From: Elusimicrobiota bacterium
GTDB lineage: Bacteria; Elusimicrobiota; Elusimicrobia; UBA1565; UBA9628
Length of the DNA stretch: 32,663 nt
NCBI GenBank assembly: GCA_027451985.1
Contig: DAIDHS010000024.1
Location: forward strand, 1-32,663
Direction of reading: 5' to 3'
The notes beneath the pieces were generated by a model that did not search any database, had not been told where the DNA came from, and was given only the letters and a program-made list of their open reading frames with translations. The position numbers and the translations under genes were made by a program. The first letter of the stretch is position 1, and each line of letters starts with the position of its first letter. Of the stretch, positions 13,551-32,345 are shown in pieces.

Positions 13551-14225
13551 ATGCGCATACTCGTTGTTGAAGACGATCCGAAAATTGCGGCGTTCATCGG
13601 CCGCGGCCTCAAGGAATCCGGCTTCGTAGTCGATCACGCCGCAGACGGGGAGACGGCCTGCCGCCGCCTGTTAGGCGAAGCCTACGCGGCCTCCGTCATG
13701 GACGTCATGCTCCCGAAATTGGACGGCCTTTCCGTCATCGAGAAAATCCGCAAGGAAAACGTGGGGCTGCCTGTCCTCATCTTGAGCGCGAAACGCTCGG
13801 TGGACGACCGCGTCAAGGGCCTGCGCACCGGAGGTGACGACTACCTCACCAAACCATTCTCCTTCTCCGAACTCCTGGCCCGCATCGAGGCTCTCCTGCG
13901 CAGACCCCGCCCCGTCGCAGACGCCGCTCCCATCATGATCGCCGATCTCACGGTAGATCCGGTATCAAGGGAAGTTATTCGCAACGGGAAGAAGATCGAT
14001 TTACCTGCGAAGGAATTCCTCCTGCTTGAATACCTCGCGCGCAACGCCGATCGGCCGGTCACCAAGGCCATGATCCTGGAAAACGTGTGGAACTATGACT
14101 TTGATCCGCAGACCAATGTGGTGGACGTACTCGTCTGCCGCCTGCGGGACAAGATCGACAAGCCCTTCGATAAAAAGCTCATCCACACCATTCGGGGAGT
14201 TGGATACGTCATCAAGGGCGCCTAA
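13551..14225 (+). CDS. OmpR/PhoB-family response regulator
   Basis: A 224-residue two-component regulator. The receiver domain (1-120) has the acidic pair EDD at 7-9, the phospho-acceptor Asp51 in VMDVMLP, the Thr/Ser position in LILSAK and Lys in LTKPF. The C-terminal winged helix (about 125-224) has RNGKKIDLPAKEFLLLEYLA, VDVLVCRLRDKID and HTIRGVGYVIKG, typical of DNA-binding OmpR relatives (CusR/QseB-like). The start is the ATG directly before RILVVEDD; longer frames add an implausible extension. No Shine-Dalgarno is visible. The kinase gene overlaps its 3' end. Likely targets are the two repeated sites at 15643 and 16341. Confidence 0.95.
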   Translation: MRILVVEDDPKIAAFIGRGLKESGFVVDHAADGETACRRLLGEAYAASVMDVMLPKLDGLSVIEKIRKENVGLPVLILSAKRSVDDRVKGLRTGGDDYLTKPFSFSELLARIEALLRRPRPVADAAPIMIADLTVDPVSREVIRNGKKIDLPAKEFLLLEYLARNADRPVTKAMILENVWNYDFDPQTNVVDVLVCRLRDKIDKPFDKKLIHTIRGVGYVIKGA

Positions 14226-15618
14226 AGCGCTCTGGCGCCGGCGGAGTTCCCTGAGCTTCCGTCTGGCCGCGTGGTTTACTGCGCTGTTCCTCCTAGGCAA
14301 TGCGGCTGTCATGATCTCGGCCTATTTCATACTCGCGTCTTCTCTTAAGCATCGGGACCGTGCCGCCATCATCTCCTCTCTGACCCATATGCGGGATGCA
14401 TATAAGGACGAAGGTCAACGCGGACTCGAACGCGAGGCGGCCGTTCAAATCAGCCGACAAGGCAAGGACGCCCACGTCATTCGCCTCCTGTCTAGGGATG
14501 GACGGAAACTCCTCGAGATGCGGACCGCAACGTGGAATGGATTTAATTTAAACAGAGCCGTTCCCATTGTTCCCCCAAAAACGCTGCGCTGGACCGTCAT
14601 CCCTGGAATTCGGGATGAACAAGTCATGGAACTAGCCTCCCGGCGGCTATCCAACGGGGATATTCTTCAAGTAGGCAATAGTGACGCGGCTCGCGAAGAT
14701 GTGCTTGAACGCTTCCGCTGGATATTGGCCGCGATTTTCCTGCCGGCGATCTTGCTGGGATTTATCGGTGGTTTTTTCATCGCCCGGCGAGCGCTTAGGC
14801 CCGTGCGGGATCTAATTCAGACGCTGGAGGCCGTCAAGTCCGGAGCCATAGGCGCCCGCGCGCCGGACCGTCCCGCCAGCGGTGAGTTGGCCGAGTTGGC
14901 CGGTATCTTTAACACCATGATGGAGCGCATCGAGTCTTTGGTGCGCGGCATGAAGAGCGCCTTGGACAACGTCGCGCATGATCTGCGCACGCCAATGACA
15001 CGACTGCGCGCCATCGCAGAGCTTCCACTCAGATCCGAGCCGGGCGTGTTCGACTACCGTGAAGTCTTGGCCGACTGCGTGGAGGAATCGGACAATGTCC
15101 TAGCAATGCTGGACACTCTCATGGACATTTCCGAGGCCGAAACCGGCACGATGACGCTTAAGCTGGAATCCGTAGATATGCATGAGCTCCTGGGTCAGGC
15201 TGTAGAAGCTTACCGCTATGCTGCGGAGGAAAAAGGCATCCGAATTAACGCCGATGATGCGGCCGCAAACGTCCGCGTCCTCTGCGACCGCGGTCGCATG
15301 CGCCGCGTTGTCGCCAACCTACTGGACAACGCCGTGAAATACACGCCCGCTGGCGGCCTCATCACCGTTGACGTGGCGGAAAAAAACGGCTTCGCGATCT
15401 TTCGCGTCAGCGACACTGGAATTGGCATACCGGCGGACGATCTACCGAAAATATGGGATCGCCTCTATAGAGGCGGCACGAGTCGTTCTCAACGAGGCCT
15501 GGGCCTCGGCTTGAGCTTGGTCAAAGCCATTGTCGATGCGCATGGCGGCGACGTATCCGTCGCAAGCACCTCCGGTTCGGGGTCCTGCTTCACCCTGCGG
15601 CTGAAAATCACCTCCTAG
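14200..15618 (+). CDS. Membrane sensor histidine kinase
   Basis: The partner kinase of the upstream regulator, about 472 residues from the proposed TTG at 14200. The true start is uncertain, since upstream ATGs at 14095 and 14116 lie deep in the regulator gene and give an unlikely extension. TM1 (FTALFLLGNAAVMISAYFIL) and TM2 (ILAAIFLPAILLGFIGGFFI) bracket a periplasmic domain of about 130 residues. HAMP follows, then HisKA with VAHDLRTPMTRLRA (phospho-acceptor His near residue 260). The ATPase domain has NLLDNAVKYTPAGG, SDTGIGIPADDLPKIWDRLY and GLGLGLSLVKAIV. The HDLRTP variant and domain layout resemble the CusS/heavy-metal-sensor group, but the signal is unknown. Confidence 0.93.
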   Translation: MDTSSRAPKALWRRRSSLSFRLAAWFTALFLLGNAAVMISAYFILASSLKHRDRAAIISSLTHMRDAYKDEGQRGLEREAAVQISRQGKDAHVIRLLSRDGRKLLEMRTATWNGFNLNRAVPIVPPKTLRWTVIPGIRDEQVMELASRRLSNGDILQVGNSDAAREDVLERFRWILAAIFLPAILLGFIGGFFIARRALRPVRDLIQTLEAVKSGAIGARAPDRPASGELAELAGIFNTMMERIESLVRGMKSALDNVAHDLRTPMTRLRAIAELPLRSEPGVFDYREVLADCVEESDNVLAMLDTLMDISEAETGTMTLKLESVDMHELLGQAVEAYRYAAEEKGIRINADDAAANVRVLCDRGRMRRVVANLLDNAVKYTPAGGLITVDVAEKNGFAIFRVSDTGIGIPADDLPKIWDRLYRGGTSRSQRGLGLGLSLVKAIVDAHGGDVSVASTSGSGSCFTLRLKITS

Positions 15619-15642: not shown

Positions 15643-15697
15643 CATTGCGCGAATGTAATGTTCCGGAAAGTTTCCAGTAATGCTCATCCGCTACCAT
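15643..15697 (+). promoter_or_regulatory. Predicted response-regulator site plus activator-dependent promoter (copy A)
   Basis: A 39-base block at 15643-15681 matches the block at 16341-16379 at 33 of 39 positions, including an identical GAATGTAATGTTCC. It holds two half-sites 11 bases apart of the form TTCC-n-G-n-AA (from 15661 and 15672), the spacing typical of OmpR/PhoB-family binding. A -10-like TACCAT lies at 15692-15697 with no -35 consensus, as expected for an activator-dependent promoter. The start codon of the exported protein follows 58 bases after the block. Confidence 0.6.
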
Positions 15698-15739
15698 CTA
15701 AGGGCTGGAAACAGCAAAACAATCAAACTGGAGACGAAC

Positions 15740-16180
15740 ATGAATAACAAAACGAAGTCGCTGCTGGCAACTACGGGGATAGCCCTGTTGCTTCCCGCCG
15801 CCGCGATGGCTCAGAATAATATGGGGAGGCCAAGCACGCAGAACCAGCCTGCCCAGATGCAGCCCGGGCAAGCGCCAGTTCCGGCCAGCCATGCCCCCAC
15901 CGCCAGAAAAATCATCCCGGCGGCCCATCCCCGCTTGGATTCCTTGCTTAAGAGCATCGTGGCCGCACGAGCCAACATTCAGGCACAAGAGAGTGCTAAG
16001 AAAATTGACGGCGCCACGGCGAACAAGATAGACGCGCAACTCGCCGGCATCAAGGCGAATGTGCGAGAAGAAGCGGCCGAGGAGGCGAAAGGCCAAGATC
16101 TCGGCCCGAAAGAATACGAGCATCTCCGCGACGAACTGCAGTCCCTTTATTCCAAGTACAAAGTAGCCGCCAGCCTTTAA
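15740..16180 (+). CDS. Small exported helical protein of unknown function
   Basis: A 146-residue protein with a clear Sec signal peptide (NKTKSLLATTGIALLLPAAA, cleavage expected after AMA before QNN). A Q/P/M-rich linker runs to about residue 50, followed by a helical domain (RLDSLLKSIVAARANIQ...LRDELQSLYSKYK). I do not recognise the family. The pattern of a short periplasmic helical protein next to a two-component system recalls CpxP/Spy-type accessory proteins in context only; I see no LTxxQ motif. The ATG is supported by GGAG 7 bases upstream. The gene follows regulatory copy A and is followed by a strong hairpin terminator. Confidence 0.87.
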   Translation: MNNKTKSLLATTGIALLLPAAAMAQNNMGRPSTQNQPAQMQPGQAPVPASHAPTARKIIPAAHPRLDSLLKSIVAARANIQAQESAKKIDGATANKIDAQLAGIKANVREEAAEEAKGQDLGPKEYEHLRDELQSLYSKYKVAASL

Positions 16181-16210
16181 GCCCTAGGAGCTTCTTAAGG
16201 GAAACGGCCA

Positions 16211-16238
16211 CCCCCGCCGTCTTAACGGACGGCGGGGG
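16211..16238 (+). terminator. Hairpin terminator after the small exported gene
   Basis: A perfect 11-base stem (CCCCCGCCGTC at 16211-16221, complement at 16228-16238) with a 6-base loop, followed by ATTTCTTC. The stem is very stable but the T-run is short. It lies 30 bases after the stop codon. Confidence 0.8.
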
Positions 16239-16340
16239 ATTTCTTCAAATAAAAACTGGAGACGCATTCACACCACAAGGACGGATTGCTTTGAATGGCG
16301 CAAGGGCGTCAATGTACTAATTGGAAAGCACTTCTTGGGG

Positions 16341-16395
16341 CATTGCAGGAATGTAATGTTCCTGAAAGGTCCCAGCAATATGACCTATGTATGAT
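16341..16395 (+). promoter_or_regulatory. Predicted response-regulator site plus activator-dependent promoter (copy B)
   Basis: The 39-base block at 16341-16379 is the second copy of the block at 15643. Its half-sites begin at 16359 (TTCCTGAAA) and 16370 (TCCCAGCAA), again 11 bases apart. The -10-like TATGAT at 16390-16395 begins 49 bases after the block start, the same offset as in copy A. No -35 consensus is present. The PepSY gene starts 59 bases after the block. Confidence 0.6.
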
Positions 16396-16438: not shown

Positions 16439-16846
16439 ATGAAACAAACTGTAGTTTCCATCGCCTTGCTGCTGGCCGCAGCTTCGGCGTTCGCCGCCGC
16501 GCCGGTTAAGCACAAAAAGAAAACCCATGCGGCCCTGCTGACCAGAAGGCAGGCCTATGCCGCGCTCGCGGCGCACGTCAAAGGAGCCAAAATCCTCGAA
16601 GCCGAACTTGAGAGGGAGTCCGGCCGGCTCATCTGGTCCTTCGACGTCGAAACAGCGTCGGAGCTTAGGGAAATCTGGCTCAATCCCGTCACCGGCGCCC
16701 TCATCAAGAGCCAGGTGGAATCCGCCCGGAAGGAAGCGCAAGAGCAGCGGCAGGAGATGAAAGAGCGGGCCGCGGCCAAGAATGACGAACAGGCGGAAAT
16801 CAAAAATGATGTCAAAGAGGATCGGAAGGCACCCGCAGGCCATTAA
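16439..16846 (+). CDS. Exported PepSY-domain protein
   Basis: A 135-residue protein with a signal peptide (MKQTVVSIALLLAAASAFAA) and a single PepSY-like domain at about 35-95. The domain shows RRQAYAALAAHVKGAKILEA, then ELERESGRLIWSFDVET and IWLNPVTGALI, the last being the usual D/NPxTG turn with Asn. The C-terminal 40 residues are highly charged (KEAQEQRQEMKERAAAKND). PepSY domains are periplasmic or extracytoplasmic modules often linked to protease inhibition or to two-component signalling genes. Here the link to the upstream kinase is by position and by the shared promoter block. The ATG has a near-perfect AGGAGG five bases upstream. Confidence 0.85.
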   Translation: MKQTVVSIALLLAAASAFAAAPVKHKKKTHAALLTRRQAYAALAAHVKGAKILEAELERESGRLIWSFDVETASELREIWLNPVTGALIKSQVESARKEAQEQRQEMKERAAAKNDEQAEIKNDVKEDRKAPAGH

Positions 16847-17039: not shown

Positions 17040-17069
17040 TTGCCAGTTGTCTCGCAAGTGTTTTAAAAT
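17040..17069 (+). promoter_or_regulatory. Predicted promoter of the efflux operon, leaderless arrangement
   Basis: TTGCCA at 17040-17045, an 18-base spacer and TAAAAT at 17064-17069. The hexamer ends 7 bases before the ATG at 17077, so the transcript should begin at or one base before the start codon. No Shine-Dalgarno is present. Confidence 0.55.
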
Positions 17070-17076
17070 TTTGCCT

Positions 17077-18363
17077 ATGAAGTTTCCGCGGAGGAGAGGC
17101 TTCGCGCCGCTCTTGATTTTCCTGCTCGCCACACCGCTCTCGCCGCTCTTAGCCCAGACGCAGGAGTTCACCTTGCCCCAGTGTCTGAGCATGGCCGAGA
17201 GCAAATCCCCGCAGACCATAAAAGCCGAGCTTCAAGCGCTTTTAGCCCGGCAGCAAAAGCAAGAAGCGCTGCGCAATCTCCTGCCCGTCGTTTACGCTAT
17301 AGGGGGGTATACAGAAACTAACAGCCCGCTTTACGCGCCCATTCTGGATAACTCGGAAAATGGAGCGGTTGGGGTCAGCTATGACGGCTTCCCTTTTTCG
17401 CCAAAGTGGTACGAGCGCGAGCGCCTTGCCGCGCTTTCGCGCGCCGCCCAATACGCCAAAATCCAGACCAAACAGGACGTCGCGCTTACGGTCGAAAGTC
17501 TCTATTTCTCCATCCTCAACAATCAGGACGCCGTGGCGGACTTGGACAAAGTGGAAAATCGGTTCAATCGCTTAAGGCTGACCGTTATCCCTCGCTACAC
17601 CATGGGCCGCGCGCCGCCTTTTGATTTGATCCAAGTTAAATCCAGCCTGGCGGATCTGGCCCGATTGCGCGATCTACTCTCCGTCCAGTTGGAGACGGAT
17701 GAGACGCAGCTTGCCTTAATCCTGGGACTCTCTCCGAATAAAGGATTGACGATCAAACCCATCTCGGCTTTGCCCGCCATCCCCAGATTTTCCTACAGCC
17801 AGGTAGAGGGAAGTCCGGCTCTGGCCTCACTCAAAGCTCAAGCAGACGCCGCAAAAATGGGCTTGAAGGAAGCCCGCGGCCAACGCTATCCCCAGTTGGT
17901 CGCCAACTATCAATATGGCTACGGCGGCCCGACCATGAATGACACCATCGTAGGCCATGTCCTCAGTGTCGGCTTAAGGCTCAATATTTTTGACTGGGGA
18001 CAAATCTCCTCACGCATCCGCCAAAATCGGACCTCCGTATCTCTGGCAGACAACGCGCTGACGGTAAAAGATCAGGCGCTAACAGTCGCTTTTGATCGAG
18101 CGAACGCTCAAGCCCAAGCGGACTTGGCCGAAATGAAGCGCCTTGAGGCGCTTCTGCCCGAGAGCCGACGCTCGGCCCAGTCAACCGTGGAGCGCTATCG
18201 CCGAGGCGCCACAACTATTTTGGAAGCCACAGGAGCCATGCAGATTTGGCTCAACGCTTTGCTGGGAGAGCGCGCCGCCTATTATTCCTACCTTCAAGAT
18301 TTAGCGACAATGCAGGATTTGACCGGACAAGGCGGCCCCGCCGCGGCCAATATTTATGAATAG
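17077..18363 (+). CDS. TolC-family outer-membrane efflux protein
   Basis: A 428-residue outer-membrane channel component of a tripartite pump. The signal peptide (GFAPLLIFLLATPLSPLLAQ) precedes the first outer-membrane-efflux-protein domain (FTLPQCLSMAESKSPQ, RLRLTVIPRYTMGRAPPFDL). The second repeat (SPALASLKAQADAAKMGLKE, ARGQRYPQLVANYQYGYGG, GLRLNIFDWGQISSRIRQNR) shows the usual two-fold organisation. Length is typical. An upstream in-frame extension is possible on paper but would precede the signal peptide and cover the promoter. Its stop overlaps the adaptor start (ATGAATAG), so the two are coupled. No dedicated terminator is seen before the RND gene. Confidence 0.93.
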   Translation: MKFPRRRGFAPLLIFLLATPLSPLLAQTQEFTLPQCLSMAESKSPQTIKAELQALLARQQKQEALRNLLPVVYAIGGYTETNSPLYAPILDNSENGAVGVSYDGFPFSPKWYERERLAALSRAAQYAKIQTKQDVALTVESLYFSILNNQDAVADLDKVENRFNRLRLTVIPRYTMGRAPPFDLIQVKSSLADLARLRDLLSVQLETDETQLALILGLSPNKGLTIKPISALPAIPRFSYSQVEGSPALASLKAQADAAKMGLKEARGQRYPQLVANYQYGYGGPTMNDTIVGHVLSVGLRLNIFDWGQISSRIRQNRTSVSLADNALTVKDQALTVAFDRANAQAQADLAEMKRLEALLPESRRSAQSTVERYRRGATTILEATGAMQIWLNALLGERAAYYSYLQDLATMQDLTGQGGPAAANIYE

Positions 18364-19015
18364 CGCGGTACGCGCGGCCCCCGCATTGGCGGCGGCCCTT
18401 CTCTGCCTTGCAGGCTGCTCCCGAAAACGCGCGGCGGCGCTTCCCGCCCTTCAGGACCAACCCACCATAATGCAGGCGCGATTGCAAGATCTCAAGGAAT
18501 ACGTGCCTGGTTATGGCATTTCGACCGAAGAAACCGGACGGCTTGAGTTCGCGGTCAATATCGAGGCAGCGGATACTCCCAAAGTTTCCAGAGGCGAAAG
18601 CGCCACGGCCTACGTGGCTCCGTCGACCGCGCCCATTCATTGCAGCGTGGCGCGGGTCCTACGCGCCGTCAGCGCCGAAACCGGGCAGTCCATCGCCTGG
18701 CTGAGGCCCATCGGCAAGGTGGACGTCCCTGTGGGCAATTTCGTCGATGCGCGCATCATAACCCGGGTGCGCCACCATGTCCTTGCCGTTCCGCCCGCGG
18801 CGGTGCTCTTCAAGAGCGGGCAGGCCTGGGTCATCCGCGCCAAGCCGCCGCAAACTCCATCGGGACAAACGAACTACGTTCCGACGGCGGTGATTTTGGG
18901 GGAAGTCACGGATGAGGCGGTGGAAATAAAATCCGGTTTAAAGCCAGGAGACAAGATCGTGGTCCAAGGCGGCATCGGATACTTGTATCCTGATTTCAAA
19001 GCGGAGGCAGACTAG
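18356..19015 (+). CDS. Short RND periplasmic adaptor-like lipoprotein
   Basis: A 219-residue lipoprotein: signal with lipobox LAGC (Cys near residue 21). It then shows only the C-terminal half of an RND adaptor: a beta-barrel-like part (EFAVNIEAADTPKVSRGESA), ARIITRVRHHVLAVPPAAVL (the usual membrane-proximal strand) and VEIKSGLKPGDKIVVQGGIG. The N-terminal alpha-hairpin and lipoyl/barrel-sandwich halves of a normal adaptor of 350-400 residues are absent, and I see no frameshift that would restore them. It lies between tolC and the RND gene and starts inside the tolC stop. It should be the pump's periplasmic linker, but how it bridges to the channel without a hairpin is unclear. Confidence 0.8.
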   Translation: MNSAVRAAPALAAALLCLAGCSRKRAAALPALQDQPTIMQARLQDLKEYVPGYGISTEETGRLEFAVNIEAADTPKVSRGESATAYVAPSTAPIHCSVARVLRAVSAETGQSIAWLRPIGKVDVPVGNFVDARIITRVRHHVLAVPPAAVLFKSGQAWVIRAKPPQTPSGQTNYVPTAVILGEVTDEAVEIKSGLKPGDKIVVQGGIGYLYPDFKAEAD

Positions 19016-19021
19016 GACCCC

Positions 19022-22000
19022 ATGTTCAAAAAATTGCTCTCCGAACTGCTCGAAGCCCCGAAAATGGTCGCGATGGCCGTGGTCCTGGTTTTTACGGCCG
19101 GTTTCGCATCTTACAAAGGTTTGCAGGTAGGGCTATTCCCCTCGCTCAATTTCCCGATCCTGAGCGTGGTCACGCAGATGCCCAGCTATTCTTCGTTGGA
19201 AATGGAGCGACAGATTACCGTGCCTCTCGAAAGCGCCTTCAGCGGCGTTTTAGGCGTGCATAAAGTTCGCTCTGCCTCAGCCACAGGCATCTCCATGGTC
19301 TCCATCCAGTTCGCTTGGGGCACCGACATGCTCCAGGCCCGCGAGCTTATTCTCCAGGCGCTGTCCTCTATCCGCGGCCAACTACCGCCCAACGCCGAGC
19401 CCAGCGTGGAAACCTTGGGCGCCACGCTAGCCATGATCCAGGGCTACAGCTTGAGCGGCGGCCCGAACACGAGCCCGGTAGAATTGCGCGACATCGCGGC
19501 TTATCAGCTGCGGCCTCAACTCCAGCGCATCATGGGCGTTTACAAAGTCCTGATCATCGGCGGCAAAGCGCTTGAGTATTCCGTACGCCTAAACCCCTAC
19601 CTCATGATCAAGTACGGCGTGACTTTGGAACAAGTGCGCGCAGCCTTAGCGAACAATAACATCTTGGCCAATCCCGGCACCGTGGTCCACCACAGCCAGG
19701 AGCTTGTCCTTCACTCTGACGGACAGTTCAGCAGCGCCGCGGAAATCGGCGAAGTTGTCATCGCGGTCAAGGATGGCATTCCCGTCCGAGTTAAGGACGT
19801 CGCGCGCGTCACGGAAACCTACCAATATGAGCGCGGCGACACTTCTGAGGACGGGCACCCGGCCGTGCTTATCCAAATATTTAAGCAGCCCTCCTTCGGC
19901 ACGCTTGACGTGGCCAGCCGCACCGATGCGGAAATCAAGACGTTTTCGAAGAACCTGCCCGTTGGAGTGACCATTCACAATTACTACGACCAAGCTCAGC
20001 TGGTCTCGGACTCCATCGAAAACGTCAAGGAGAACGTCTGGATCGGCGGGCTTCTGGTCATCTTCGTTCTGGCCCTGGCGCTACGCAGCGCCAAGACCAC
20101 GCTCATCGCCACCATCAGCATCCCCATTTCCGTGGTGGCCGCCCTGGTCCTAATGCGTCTATTGGGCATCGGCTTGAACGTCATGTCCCTCGGAGGCTTG
20201 GCCATCGGCACGGCCATTATCGTTGATGACGCCATCGTCGTTCTGGAGAATATCTTCCGCTGGCTCTCCACGCCGGCTTTACGCGGGAACCTCAGCCACA
20301 AGGATCTCGTCATCTCCGCGACCCAGGAAGTGATCAAGCCCGTCGTCGTCTCGACCTTCACCAACATCGGCATCTTTCTTCCCATGGTATTCGTGGCTGG
20401 CTTCGCCGGCCGGCTCTTCGCGCCGGTGAGCTTCACCGTCACCTTCACTATTCTCGCCTCCCTCATCGTCGCCGTGACCGTCATTCCCACTCTGGCCCTC
20501 TACTGGCTCACGGCGAAGGATGCGCCGCCCGAAGAGACCGACGGTCCCCTGAAGCACGGCTACTCTAAAATCCTCAGGGCCTCGATGAAGCGCCCCGTTG
20601 CGGCCATCATCATAGGATTATTGCCGGCGGTGGCCGCCCTGGGATTTTTCCGCAAGCTCAACGTGGAATTCCTACCGAGCCTGGATGAAGGCGCGGTTTT
20701 ATTATCAACCCTTATGCCGCCCGGTGTTTCCTTGACCGAAGCCGAGCGGGTCAATCGAAAAATCGAGCTGTGGGCGCAGAGCCTGCCGGGCGTAGTGACC
20801 GTAGCTCGGCTCACGGGGCATGCCGCGGGCGCGGAGGATACGGACAACATCAACCACAGCGACATCATGATCAAGCTCGTGCCCAAAACCAAGCGCCCCA
20901 TCCCGCTTAAGCAATTCATCGCCGAGATGAGCGCCAAGACCGATAATCTCCCCAGCATTTCGGCCGAGTATCTCATGCCCCTGGCGGATAAAATCAACGA
21001 CGCCATGGGCGGCGTGCCGGCGGATTTGGGCGTCAACATTTTCGGTCCCGACTTAGGGAAGCTAAATTCCTACGCGCAGGAGCTCGTCAAATCCATGAAG
21101 CCCATCCCGGGCATCGTCAACCTGATGCCTCCCGCCACCATCCCGGTGCCATCGCTTCAGGTGACTCTCAATAAAAAAGAAGCCGGCCGCCTCGGAATCT
21201 CAGAAAGGACTATCTACGACACTTTAGACGCCTACTCGGTGGGCCTGGTGGCCACTACCATCCACCAGGTTCTCAAGCGCATCAACGTGACCCTGCACTA
21301 CGCGACGCCCGGCCAAAACATTGATTTTGAAGCGATGGACAGCCTGCCCTTGAGGACCGCGGGGGGGAACATCGTGCCCCTGGAACAGGTGGCGAACCTA
21401 AGCTACAGCGAAATTCCCAGCGAAATCGATCATGAGCACTTAAGCCGCATGGTCACCGTGACTGCGAACGTCCGCGGCCGCAACGCCCGTAACGTCGCCG
21501 CGGACGTGCAGAAAGCGGTCGAGGCCCTGCACCTGCCCCCGGGCTACTCCTGGGCTTTCACCGGCAAATACGCAGCCCAGCAAAAATCTTTCTCTAATCT
21601 GCTCATGGTGCTGGGATTCGCGGTCATCGTAGTGGCCCTTATCATGTGGCTTGAATTCCGATCATGGATGCAGGTCTTCATCATCCTTCTGACCGTCCCC
21701 TTGGCCGGCGTGGGCGCCATCTTCAGCCTTTGGCTCTGCCATCAGACCGTCAACGTATCCTCTATGATCGGCGCCGTGCTCTTGGTCGGCATCGTGGTCC
21801 GCAATGGCATCCTGCTCCTAGACTACATGAACGCCCAGCTCGCGGAAGGAACGCCCTTGAAGGAAGCCATCTCCTCCGCGGCCCTAAAGCGCGTGCGGCC
21901 CATCCTGATGACCGCCTCGGTCATGGTCCTGGGCTTGGTGCCCCTAGCCACGGGCTGGGGGACGGGATCCGAACTCGAACAGCCCATGGCCATCGCCGTC

Positions 22001-22084
22001 ATCGGCGGCATCCTTACCTCGACCATCCTAACCTTGGTCGTTCTGCCCGCCGCCGCGGCGTTGTTCCTTAAAGAGAAAAAATAA
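19022..22084 (+). CDS. RND-superfamily inner-membrane efflux transporter
   Basis: A 1020-residue proton-driven transporter of the AcrB/CusA type: 12 membrane segments in two halves, each with a large periplasmic loop. Helix 4 carries GTAIIVDDAIVVLENIF with Asp402-Asp403, the double Asp typical of drug-type (HAE) pumps. In contrast LPSLDEGAVLLSTLMPPGVS and GVPADLGVNIFGPDLGKL look like metal-type (HME, CzcA/CusA) pumps. The C-terminal half has MIGAVLLVGIVVRNGILLLD and a PIAxA-like QPMAIAVIGG. The substrate is therefore open. It starts 6 bases after the adaptor stop with AGGA just upstream. Expected complex: this pump, the short adaptor and the TolC-like channel. Confidence 0.94.
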   Translation: MFKKLLSELLEAPKMVAMAVVLVFTAGFASYKGLQVGLFPSLNFPILSVVTQMPSYSSLEMERQITVPLESAFSGVLGVHKVRSASATGISMVSIQFAWGTDMLQARELILQALSSIRGQLPPNAEPSVETLGATLAMIQGYSLSGGPNTSPVELRDIAAYQLRPQLQRIMGVYKVLIIGGKALEYSVRLNPYLMIKYGVTLEQVRAALANNNILANPGTVVHHSQELVLHSDGQFSSAAEIGEVVIAVKDGIPVRVKDVARVTETYQYERGDTSEDGHPAVLIQIFKQPSFGTLDVASRTDAEIKTFSKNLPVGVTIHNYYDQAQLVSDSIENVKENVWIGGLLVIFVLALALRSAKTTLIATISIPISVVAALVLMRLLGIGLNVMSLGGLAIGTAIIVDDAIVVLENIFRWLSTPALRGNLSHKDLVISATQEVIKPVVVSTFTNIGIFLPMVFVAGFAGRLFAPVSFTVTFTILASLIVAVTVIPTLALYWLTAKDAPPEETDGPLKHGYSKILRASMKRPVAAIIIGLLPAVAALGFFRKLNVEFLPSLDEGAVLLSTLMPPGVSLTEAERVNRKIELWAQSLPGVVTVARLTGHAAGAEDTDNINHSDIMIKLVPKTKRPIPLKQFIAEMSAKTDNLPSISAEYLMPLADKINDAMGGVPADLGVNIFGPDLGKLNSYAQELVKSMKPIPGIVNLMPPATIPVPSLQVTLNKKEAGRLGISERTIYDTLDAYSVGLVATTIHQVLKRINVTLHYATPGQNIDFEAMDSLPLRTAGGNIVPLEQVANLSYSEIPSEIDHEHLSRMVTVTANVRGRNARNVAADVQKAVEALHLPPGYSWAFTGKYAAQQKSFSNLLMVLGFAVIVVALIMWLEFRSWMQVFIILLTVPLAGVGAIFSLWLCHQTVNVSSMIGAVLLVGIVVRNGILLLDYMNAQLAEGTPLKEAISSAALKRVRPILMTASVMVLGLVPLATGWGTGSELEQPMAIAVIGGILTSTILTLVVLPAAAALFLKEKK

Positions 22085-31520: not shown

Positions 31521-32345
31521 TCATTTAAGCAACTCAACGATATCCGCGATCTCCCACACATGATCCGTTAGTCCCGTTTTCATCGCGGGAGTAACCCGTA
31601 AGCTCTGATGAATCCGGCAGAAGTTGTAATACATGAAGTGAAGCGCGACCGCGTGTTCTAAGTTCTGAATCTTCTTAGAAAACGCGTTAGTCAGCCGCGT
31701 AAACCGACGCATCCCCATCCTCATAGTAAGGTTAGAGCGTTCCACAAAGCTGGTAGAGATATTTTTCTTTAGAGGCTTGCCCTCTATTATGTCCTCCCGA
31801 ACGCCGATACATTCGCCGGGGCTATATTTGCCCTCCGGTCCAACTGTAGGGCCGTAAATCTTCACCAGCTGGCTAAAGTCGATATTACCCCTAAAAGCCT
31901 TCTCCACGGCCCGGATATAGGCTTTATGGCCGTCCGTGGTAAGCTGGACGCGGTTAGCCAAGCGCGGGGCTAGTCCCTTTATAAAGATAGTGGCGTCTGC
32001 CGCGTTGCGGCTTCCAATGTGCCAATGCGCGATTAACTTTGTATCGGCATCCAAGGCCGTCCAAGTCCAAACATCGCCAAAGCCTAGCCGTCCGCGTAAG
32101 AGCTTCGGCACATTCTTTTCCTTGGCGTAGCAGAAGGACCAAATTTCATCGCACTGGATATCCTTGCAAGGGAGATTCTTAAAGGTCCGGTCTTGGTATT
32201 CTTTGCAAGCCGTTCCCACACGGACCAAGAGGCTCATAACAGTGTTCTTGTCCACACCTGTTAGCCGGGCCGTTCCCCGGATAGAATTGCCCTCGACCAA
32301 TGCCGCGATAATTGCAATCTGTTTTTCTTTTGTTAAGTTGTTCAT
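31521..32345 (-). CDS. IS1-type DDE transposase
   Basis: A 274-residue transposase in a single uninterrupted frame, with no programmed frameshift as in classical IS1. The N-terminal helix-turn-helix (IAALVEGNSIRGTARLTGVD, KNTVMSLLVRVG) is followed by the catalytic acids Asp66 (IQCDEIWSF), Asp138 (TTDGHKAY) and Glu202 (FVERSNLTMRM). The C-terminus has FMYYNFCRIHQSLRVTPAMK. All three acids are present, so it may be active. Codon use and GC content are unlike the neighbours, consistent with recent arrival. ATG 32345 follows a consensus promoter by 6 bases. Confidence 0.9.
   Translation of the reverse strand: MNNLTKEKQIAIIAALVEGNSIRGTARLTGVDKNTVMSLLVRVGTACKEYQDRTFKNLPCKDIQCDEIWSFCYAKEKNVPKLLRGRLGFGDVWTWTALDADTKLIAHWHIGSRNAADATIFIKGLAPRLANRVQLTTDGHKAYIRAVEKAFRGNIDFSQLVKIYGPTVGPEGKYSPGECIGVREDIIEGKPLKKNISTSFVERSNLTMRMGMRRFTRLTNAFSKKIQNLEHAVALHFMYYNFCRIHQSLRVTPAMKTGLTDHVWEIADIVELLK

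Follow-up and report, generated by a model that had tools for sequence, protein, structure and literature searches.

Closest Described Systems

AgrR of Cupriavidus metallidurans recognizes a box composed of a 16-bp inverted repeat, ATKACANNNNTGTMAT, and of in-phase direct half-sites, both of which aid activation; it is a type II activator site, placed at promoters with a good -10 and a poor -35, and the target that AgrR induces most strongly, PrsQ2, is small and predicted to be periplasmic (PMC7380067). The HprR/CusR box of Escherichia coli (hprR-hiuH-msrPQ), CATTACAAAATTGTAATG, contains the inverted pair CATT-N7-TGTAAT with an 11-bp step and another direct half-site, TGTAAG, 11 bp further on, the -10 being located at 39 bp. 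As for the genes surrounding such systems, in DbfQRS of Vibrio cholerae the kinase of a two-component system is controlled by a small PepSY protein, whose gene adjoins those of the system (PMC12714742).

The locus considered in the present work lies in a stretch of 32,663 nucleotides from an Elusimicrobiota bacterium, analysed at its full length and hereafter called the window. An earlier note on this DNA had described two 39-bp blocks upstream of two small exported-protein genes and had attributed them to OmpR-family activation by the regulator encoded directly upstream.

Gene Organization of the Locus

The OmpR-family response regulator (13551..14225, plus strand, as are the other genes of the locus) joins a PF00072 receiver to a PF00486 winged-helix effector domain, the architecture of the OmpR/PhoB family, and is the presumed operator-binding protein. 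Its closest models are CusR/CzcR/CopR and HprR: TIGR01387 (heavy-metal response regulator) is the top one with 246 bits, under the curated cut-off of 279.2, and the DNA-binding domain bears the FDxxTNxxDV..RLR signature of HprR/CusR. In the phylogenetic tree, the regulator falls in its own well-supported branch of 21 rows from several phyla, beside HprR/CusR; this branch belongs, together with HprR, CusR, QseB, and BasR, to a wider group, whose deeper order is unsure owing to the long E. coli branches. Judging from its sequence, the protein is best described as a relative of the heavy-metal subfamily, rather than a certified member of it. The membrane histidine kinase that follows (14233..15618), its presumed cognate, has the heavy-metal sensor kinase TIGR01386 as nearest and top model (246 bits, under the curated cut-off of 292.55).

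The first small exported protein (15740..16180) is 146 residues long, with a signal peptide followed by a stretch of some 85 residues for which three helices are predicted (mean pLDDT 67). The sequence matched no family of Pfam or NCBIfam, and its predicted fold retrieved no solved relative at E ≤ 0.001; a single clear homologue (41%) is harbored by the relative G007, where it is unlinked and preceded by no recognizable box. The second exported protein (16439..16846), of 135 residues, carries a PepSY domain (PF03413) and is encoded two genes after the kinase, that is, within the four genes from a kinase or regulator taken here as a DbfQRS-like arrangement. In both this locus and DbfQRS, a small exported PepSY protein of 135 residues adjoins the two-component genes; in V. 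cholerae, however, the PepSY gene is upstream, in an operon with the regulator and the kinase, whereas in the window it is downstream and has its own promoter. The two exported-protein genes are unrelated to each other.

Further downstream, a TolC gene, a short adaptor gene, and a CusA/CzcA-like RND pump gene (17077..22084) have no operator of their own in the window. The adaptor (18356-19015, 219 residues, with a lipobox) is matched by the adaptor models in their C-terminal half only, and the lipoyl and alpha-hairpin parts, usually reaching TolC, hence appear to be absent; since the adaptors of the loci L038, L041, L042, and L043 are equally short, this is a conserved short adaptor. Near the contig end, a transposase-like ORF is found on the minus strand (31521-32345), with an IS1-type resemblance by eye.

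Structure of the Two Blocks

The pairwise comparison of the 39-mers of the whole window upheld the two blocks of the earlier note, located at 15643..15681 and 16341..16379 of the plus strand: they share 33 of 39 positions and are the top same-strand pair, the runner-up (31/39) lying within a low-complexity coding stretch, and no inverted pair with at least 30 of 39 identities was found. Each block begins with an inverted half-site, CATTGC, from which three direct ones, TGTAAT, kGAAAG, and AGyAAT, follow at 11-bp steps. In block 1 these are CATTGC (15643-15648), TGTAAT (15654-15659), GGAAAG (15665-15670), and AGTAAT (15676-15681); in block 2, CATTGC (16341-16346), TGTAAT (16352-16357), TGAAAG (16363-16368), and AGCAAT (16374-16379). 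The block boundaries are meaningful, the start coinciding with the inverted half-site and the end with that of the third direct half-site, and the alignment of the two upstream regions does not extend beyond them. The description previously given, that is, TTCC-n-G-n-AA half-sites spaced by 11 bases, was largely right, but block 2 has TCCC in place of its second "TTCC", and the upstream inverted half-site CATTGC had been overlooked.

The comparison with ATKACANNNNTGTMAT revealed one mismatch in the core of block 2 (ATTGCA-GGAA-TGTAAT) and two in that of block 1 (ATTGCG-CGAA-TGTAAT). Both blocks contain the 6-4-6 inverted repeat (ATTAC..GTAAT with a 4-bp spacer), the promoter-proximal half being perfect in each, and two extra half-sites at 11-bp steps occur in both and in many relatives. 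The window and AgrR are alike in combining a 6-4-6 inverted repeat and in-phase direct repeats with a -10 accompanied by a poor or missing -35, and in having a small exported or periplasmic protein as a known or presumed target. The inverted pair with its 11-bp step is also that of the HprR/CusR box; compared to the latter, the window has three direct half-sites, an imperfect inverted half (CATTGC), and the -10 at 38 bp, the target genes differ, and HprR and CusR belong to a branch separate from that of the window regulator. The operator is, thus, of an already known type, that of CusR, HprR, and AgrR, in which an inverted pair is combined with in-phase direct half-sites.

Promoters and Transcription Units

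Both blocks are followed by a -10-like hexamer, TACCAT (15692..15697) and TATGAT (16390..16395), respectively, on the plus strand and both 38 bp away, counting from the T of TGTAAT, with predicted transcription starts at about 15704 and 16402; the former hexamer is weak. The geometry reported previously was reproduced in full: each hexamer begins at an offset of 49 bases from the start of its block, the blocks lie 58 and 59 bases before the ATG codons (at 15740 and 16439), and neither promoter has a -35, the corresponding slots being AGTTTC in promoter 1 and AGGTCC in promoter 2. A sigma-70 promoter scan found none at either block promoter. In both cases, the box covers the -35 position, 38 bp from the -10, as in a type II site.

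Between the two exported-protein genes there is a strong intrinsic-terminator-like hairpin (16211..16238, plus strand, z = -4.2), which implies that the second gene requires its own promoter; a second strong hairpin sets the pump genes apart. No operator was found before TolC in the window (best matrix score in the interval, -1.9). A degenerate TGAAAGGTCCTGAAAAT at about 16960, considered as a pump site, fails to score with the matrix, and the sole promoter-like match ahead of the pump (17040-17069) is at chance level. The regulator's own promoter in the window also lacks a box (best score, -4.6). The suggestion that the pump might belong to the regulon finds no backing, therefore, in the window, where no site precedes TolC and two strong hairpins lie between the genes, but in three relatives (G002, G019, and G026) the pump genes are located behind such a box.

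Copies of the Box in the Window and in the Genome

The whole assembly (2,407,815 bases in 107 contigs) was scanned with the 20-base core of the blocks. At up to three mismatches, the only two matches were the blocks themselves, which rules out a dispersed repeat, one of the two findings that the earlier note had named as capable of overturning its reading. The promoter-spaced pattern retrieved both blocks and one further match, at C27:14123. This third match (L160:2124-2167, corresponding to G000:C27:14123-14166) is on the minus strand, 5' of an exported-protein gene; since the matrix does not rank it among the highest scores of its region, it was treated as, and probably is, a chance match.

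A weight matrix was then built from 13 sites of Elusimicrobia relatives only, leaving the window out. With this matrix, block 1 scored 33.6 bits and block 2 scored 26.1 bits, against 12.9 for the next place in the window; in 200 simulated windows, the maxima had a mean of 9.3 and a highest value of 22.7.

Orthologous Loci in Other Elusimicrobia

A small number of other Elusimicrobia genomes encode clear orthologues of the kinase, with 43-48% of the aligned residues identical and E < 1e-90. The gene order is regulator-kinase-PepSY-TolC-adaptor-RND in L042 and L043 and regulator-kinase-PepSY-PepSY in L040, while in L041 TolC-adaptor-RND faces kinase-regulator; in L037 and L039, a PepSY gene is near the regulator-kinase pair. 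The upstream regions of these loci, inspected without a spacing filter, contain TGT(A/C)AT-N6-GnAA(G/T) 5' of the PepSY gene (L037, L039, L040, L042, and L043) or of TolC (L041), and the -10 is always exactly 38 bp downstream. At the genome level, the box adjoins the orthologous regulator/kinase pair in G002, G019, G026, G035, G036, and G130; in G002 and G035 it falls just outside the strict pattern, and in G007 the orthologous system is present with no recognizable box.

The exact promoter pattern was searched for in 147 relatives. Within the same family, it occurs in four out of seven genomes with the orthologous kinase vs. one out of 37 without it (Fisher p = 0.0012). Among the 147 relatives, G036 has seven exact matches, six of which are at its two regulator/kinase loci. 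These loci, L157 (C44) and L158 (C438), have several boxes each, before a PepSY gene, a glycosyltransferase-like ORF, and a DUF2127 gene; the seventh copy is on contig C389, ahead of another DUF2127-type gene.

The Box Beside Related Systems of Other Phyla

The scan of other phyla was carried out on named relatives of the kinase; L050 and L052 duplicate contigs of G036 and G002 and are not independent. The Elusimicrobia-only matrix gave 26.5 in L049 (labelled Deltaproteobacteria), 28.6 in L067 (Spirochaetales), 24.5 in L057 (Prosthecobacter), 22.4 in L068 (Opitutus), and 21.4 in L118 (Roseibium). On E. coli, the Elusimicrobia-only box matrix scored 20.6 bits at the hprR-hiuH operator, the next best value in 10 kb being 2.6, and the site found in this way had been published as the HprR/CusR box (PMC9302797); the same matrix did not retrieve the CusR-cusC operator of this species.

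A box-only matrix, which also takes in the window, L049, and L067, retrieved about 20 matches in 1.23 Mb that exceed 16.5, the highest score reached in simulation. The majority are just 5' of a gene of about 500 codons, and the five such genes inspected encode proteases of the HtrA/DegP type, in which trypsin and PDZ domains are present. In Verrucomicrobia, Spirochaetes, Proteobacteria, and organisms labelled Deltaproteobacteria, the box is found 5' of HtrA/DegP genes that neighbour related regulator/kinase pairs. These systems share with the window the same operator and a related regulator (53-63% identity), but their target is a periplasmic protease, and the window locus has no HtrA gene. 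Two deltaproteobacterial loci (L053:3157 and L054:7908) have a weaker box after the kinase, before a sulfatase-fold membrane protein of about 680 residues, which takes the place of HtrA or PepSY. Searches of the open-access literature retrieved no account of this operator, either for Elusimicrobia or upstream of such HtrA genes.

Fifteen non-Elusimicrobia sites, 13 from these loci and two from E. coli operators, give the consensus a..ttacaaa..TGTAAT.T.CC.GAAAG.T.CC.GT.AGG. Agreement with it reaches 25/30 and 23/30 positions in the two blocks and at most 18/30 elsewhere in the window. The possibility that the TTCC part is peculiar to the window was discarded, as these 15 sites give T.CC before the next half-site, which is also why the half-site of the earlier note may be considered largely right.

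A Probable Mechanism and Its Alternatives

The sharing of the box and of the 38-bp spacing among orthologous loci, together with the recovery of both blocks by a matrix that does not contain them, strongly supports the proposal of OmpR-family activation by the regulator encoded upstream. We estimate a probability of nearly nine in ten that the twin blocks are operators of the adjacent two-component system, used for class II activation of the two exported-protein genes. The most likely course of events is the following: the kinase (14233-15618) would sense an envelope or metal-type signal and activate the regulator (13551-14225), which, phosphorylated or otherwise active, would cover the block in place of the -35 contacts and recruit RNA polymerase to the -10 fixed 38 bp downstream of TGTAAT. 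Two separate transcripts would result, one for the exported helical protein and the other for the exported PepSY protein; by analogy with DbfQRS, the latter might feed back on the kinase. Envelope or metal stress is probably the signal, as suggested by the heavy-metal-sensor-like kinase, the CusA/CzcA-type pump, and the HtrA targets of related systems elsewhere. Weighing against this reading as a whole are the weak -10 of promoter 1, the absence of a box before the regulator gene, the scores of regulator and kinase under the curated cut-offs, the failure of the matrix on CusR-cusC, and the boxless orthologous system of G007.

A different OmpR-family regulator of the same genome might bind the blocks, the local pair being a mere neighbour: other members of this family are encoded in the genome, genomes of the group have dozens of candidate kinase/regulator pairs each, and OmpR-family sites resemble one another. 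We consider this unlikely, since the box tracks the orthologous pair across relatives and several phyla and is nearly missing from the family members without the pair. The closeness of the third half-site to the -10 could, in turn, point to repressor sites, with the promoters shut by the regulator or by another protein; yet these promoters have no -35, and the box occupies the distance expected of an activator, a constant 38 bp in the Elusimicrobia sites, as in type II activation, so that repression seems very improbable.

The presence of both blocks in one locus and their close match are also what would be expected if block 2 were a recent, functionally meaningless duplicate of promoter 1. 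Against this, the similarity ends at the block edges, with unaligned flanks, the downstream genes are unrelated, and each block separately fits the matrix derived from other genomes; of the alternatives considered, this is the one to which we give the least credit, a very small one. Operators activated by the adjacent system remain, therefore, the preferred reading, and the "probable new regulon" of the earlier note can be retained in part: an adjacent system with two targets is supported, but the kind of operator, of the CusR/HprR/AgrR type, is not new.

Biological Significance

The match with the E. coli HprR/CusR box and the HtrA-linked systems of other phyla suggest an old operator, in which the target genes change and the DNA code stays. 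It seems somewhat more probable than the contrary that a deep CusR/HprR-like branch has kept one operator (one inverted half-site with two or three direct ones, spaced at 11-bp steps) in at least five lineages, i.e., Elusimicrobiota, Verrucomicrobiota, Spirochaetota, Pseudomonadota, and "Deltaproteobacteria", for an envelope-quality regulon whose targets have been swapped. If this were true, the targets would be HtrA proteases in most phyla and PepSY and small exported proteins in Elusimicrobiota, in some cases with a hairpin-less RND pump. This cross-phylum conservation is the more interesting finding, and the operator code may be used for predicting such regulons elsewhere. As for the organism itself, an uncultured Elusimicrobia lineage gains, from sequence alone, a testable predicted regulon composed of a regulator, an operator, and two targets, through which an unnamed exported protein and a PepSY protein would be tied to an envelope-stress or metal-type response.
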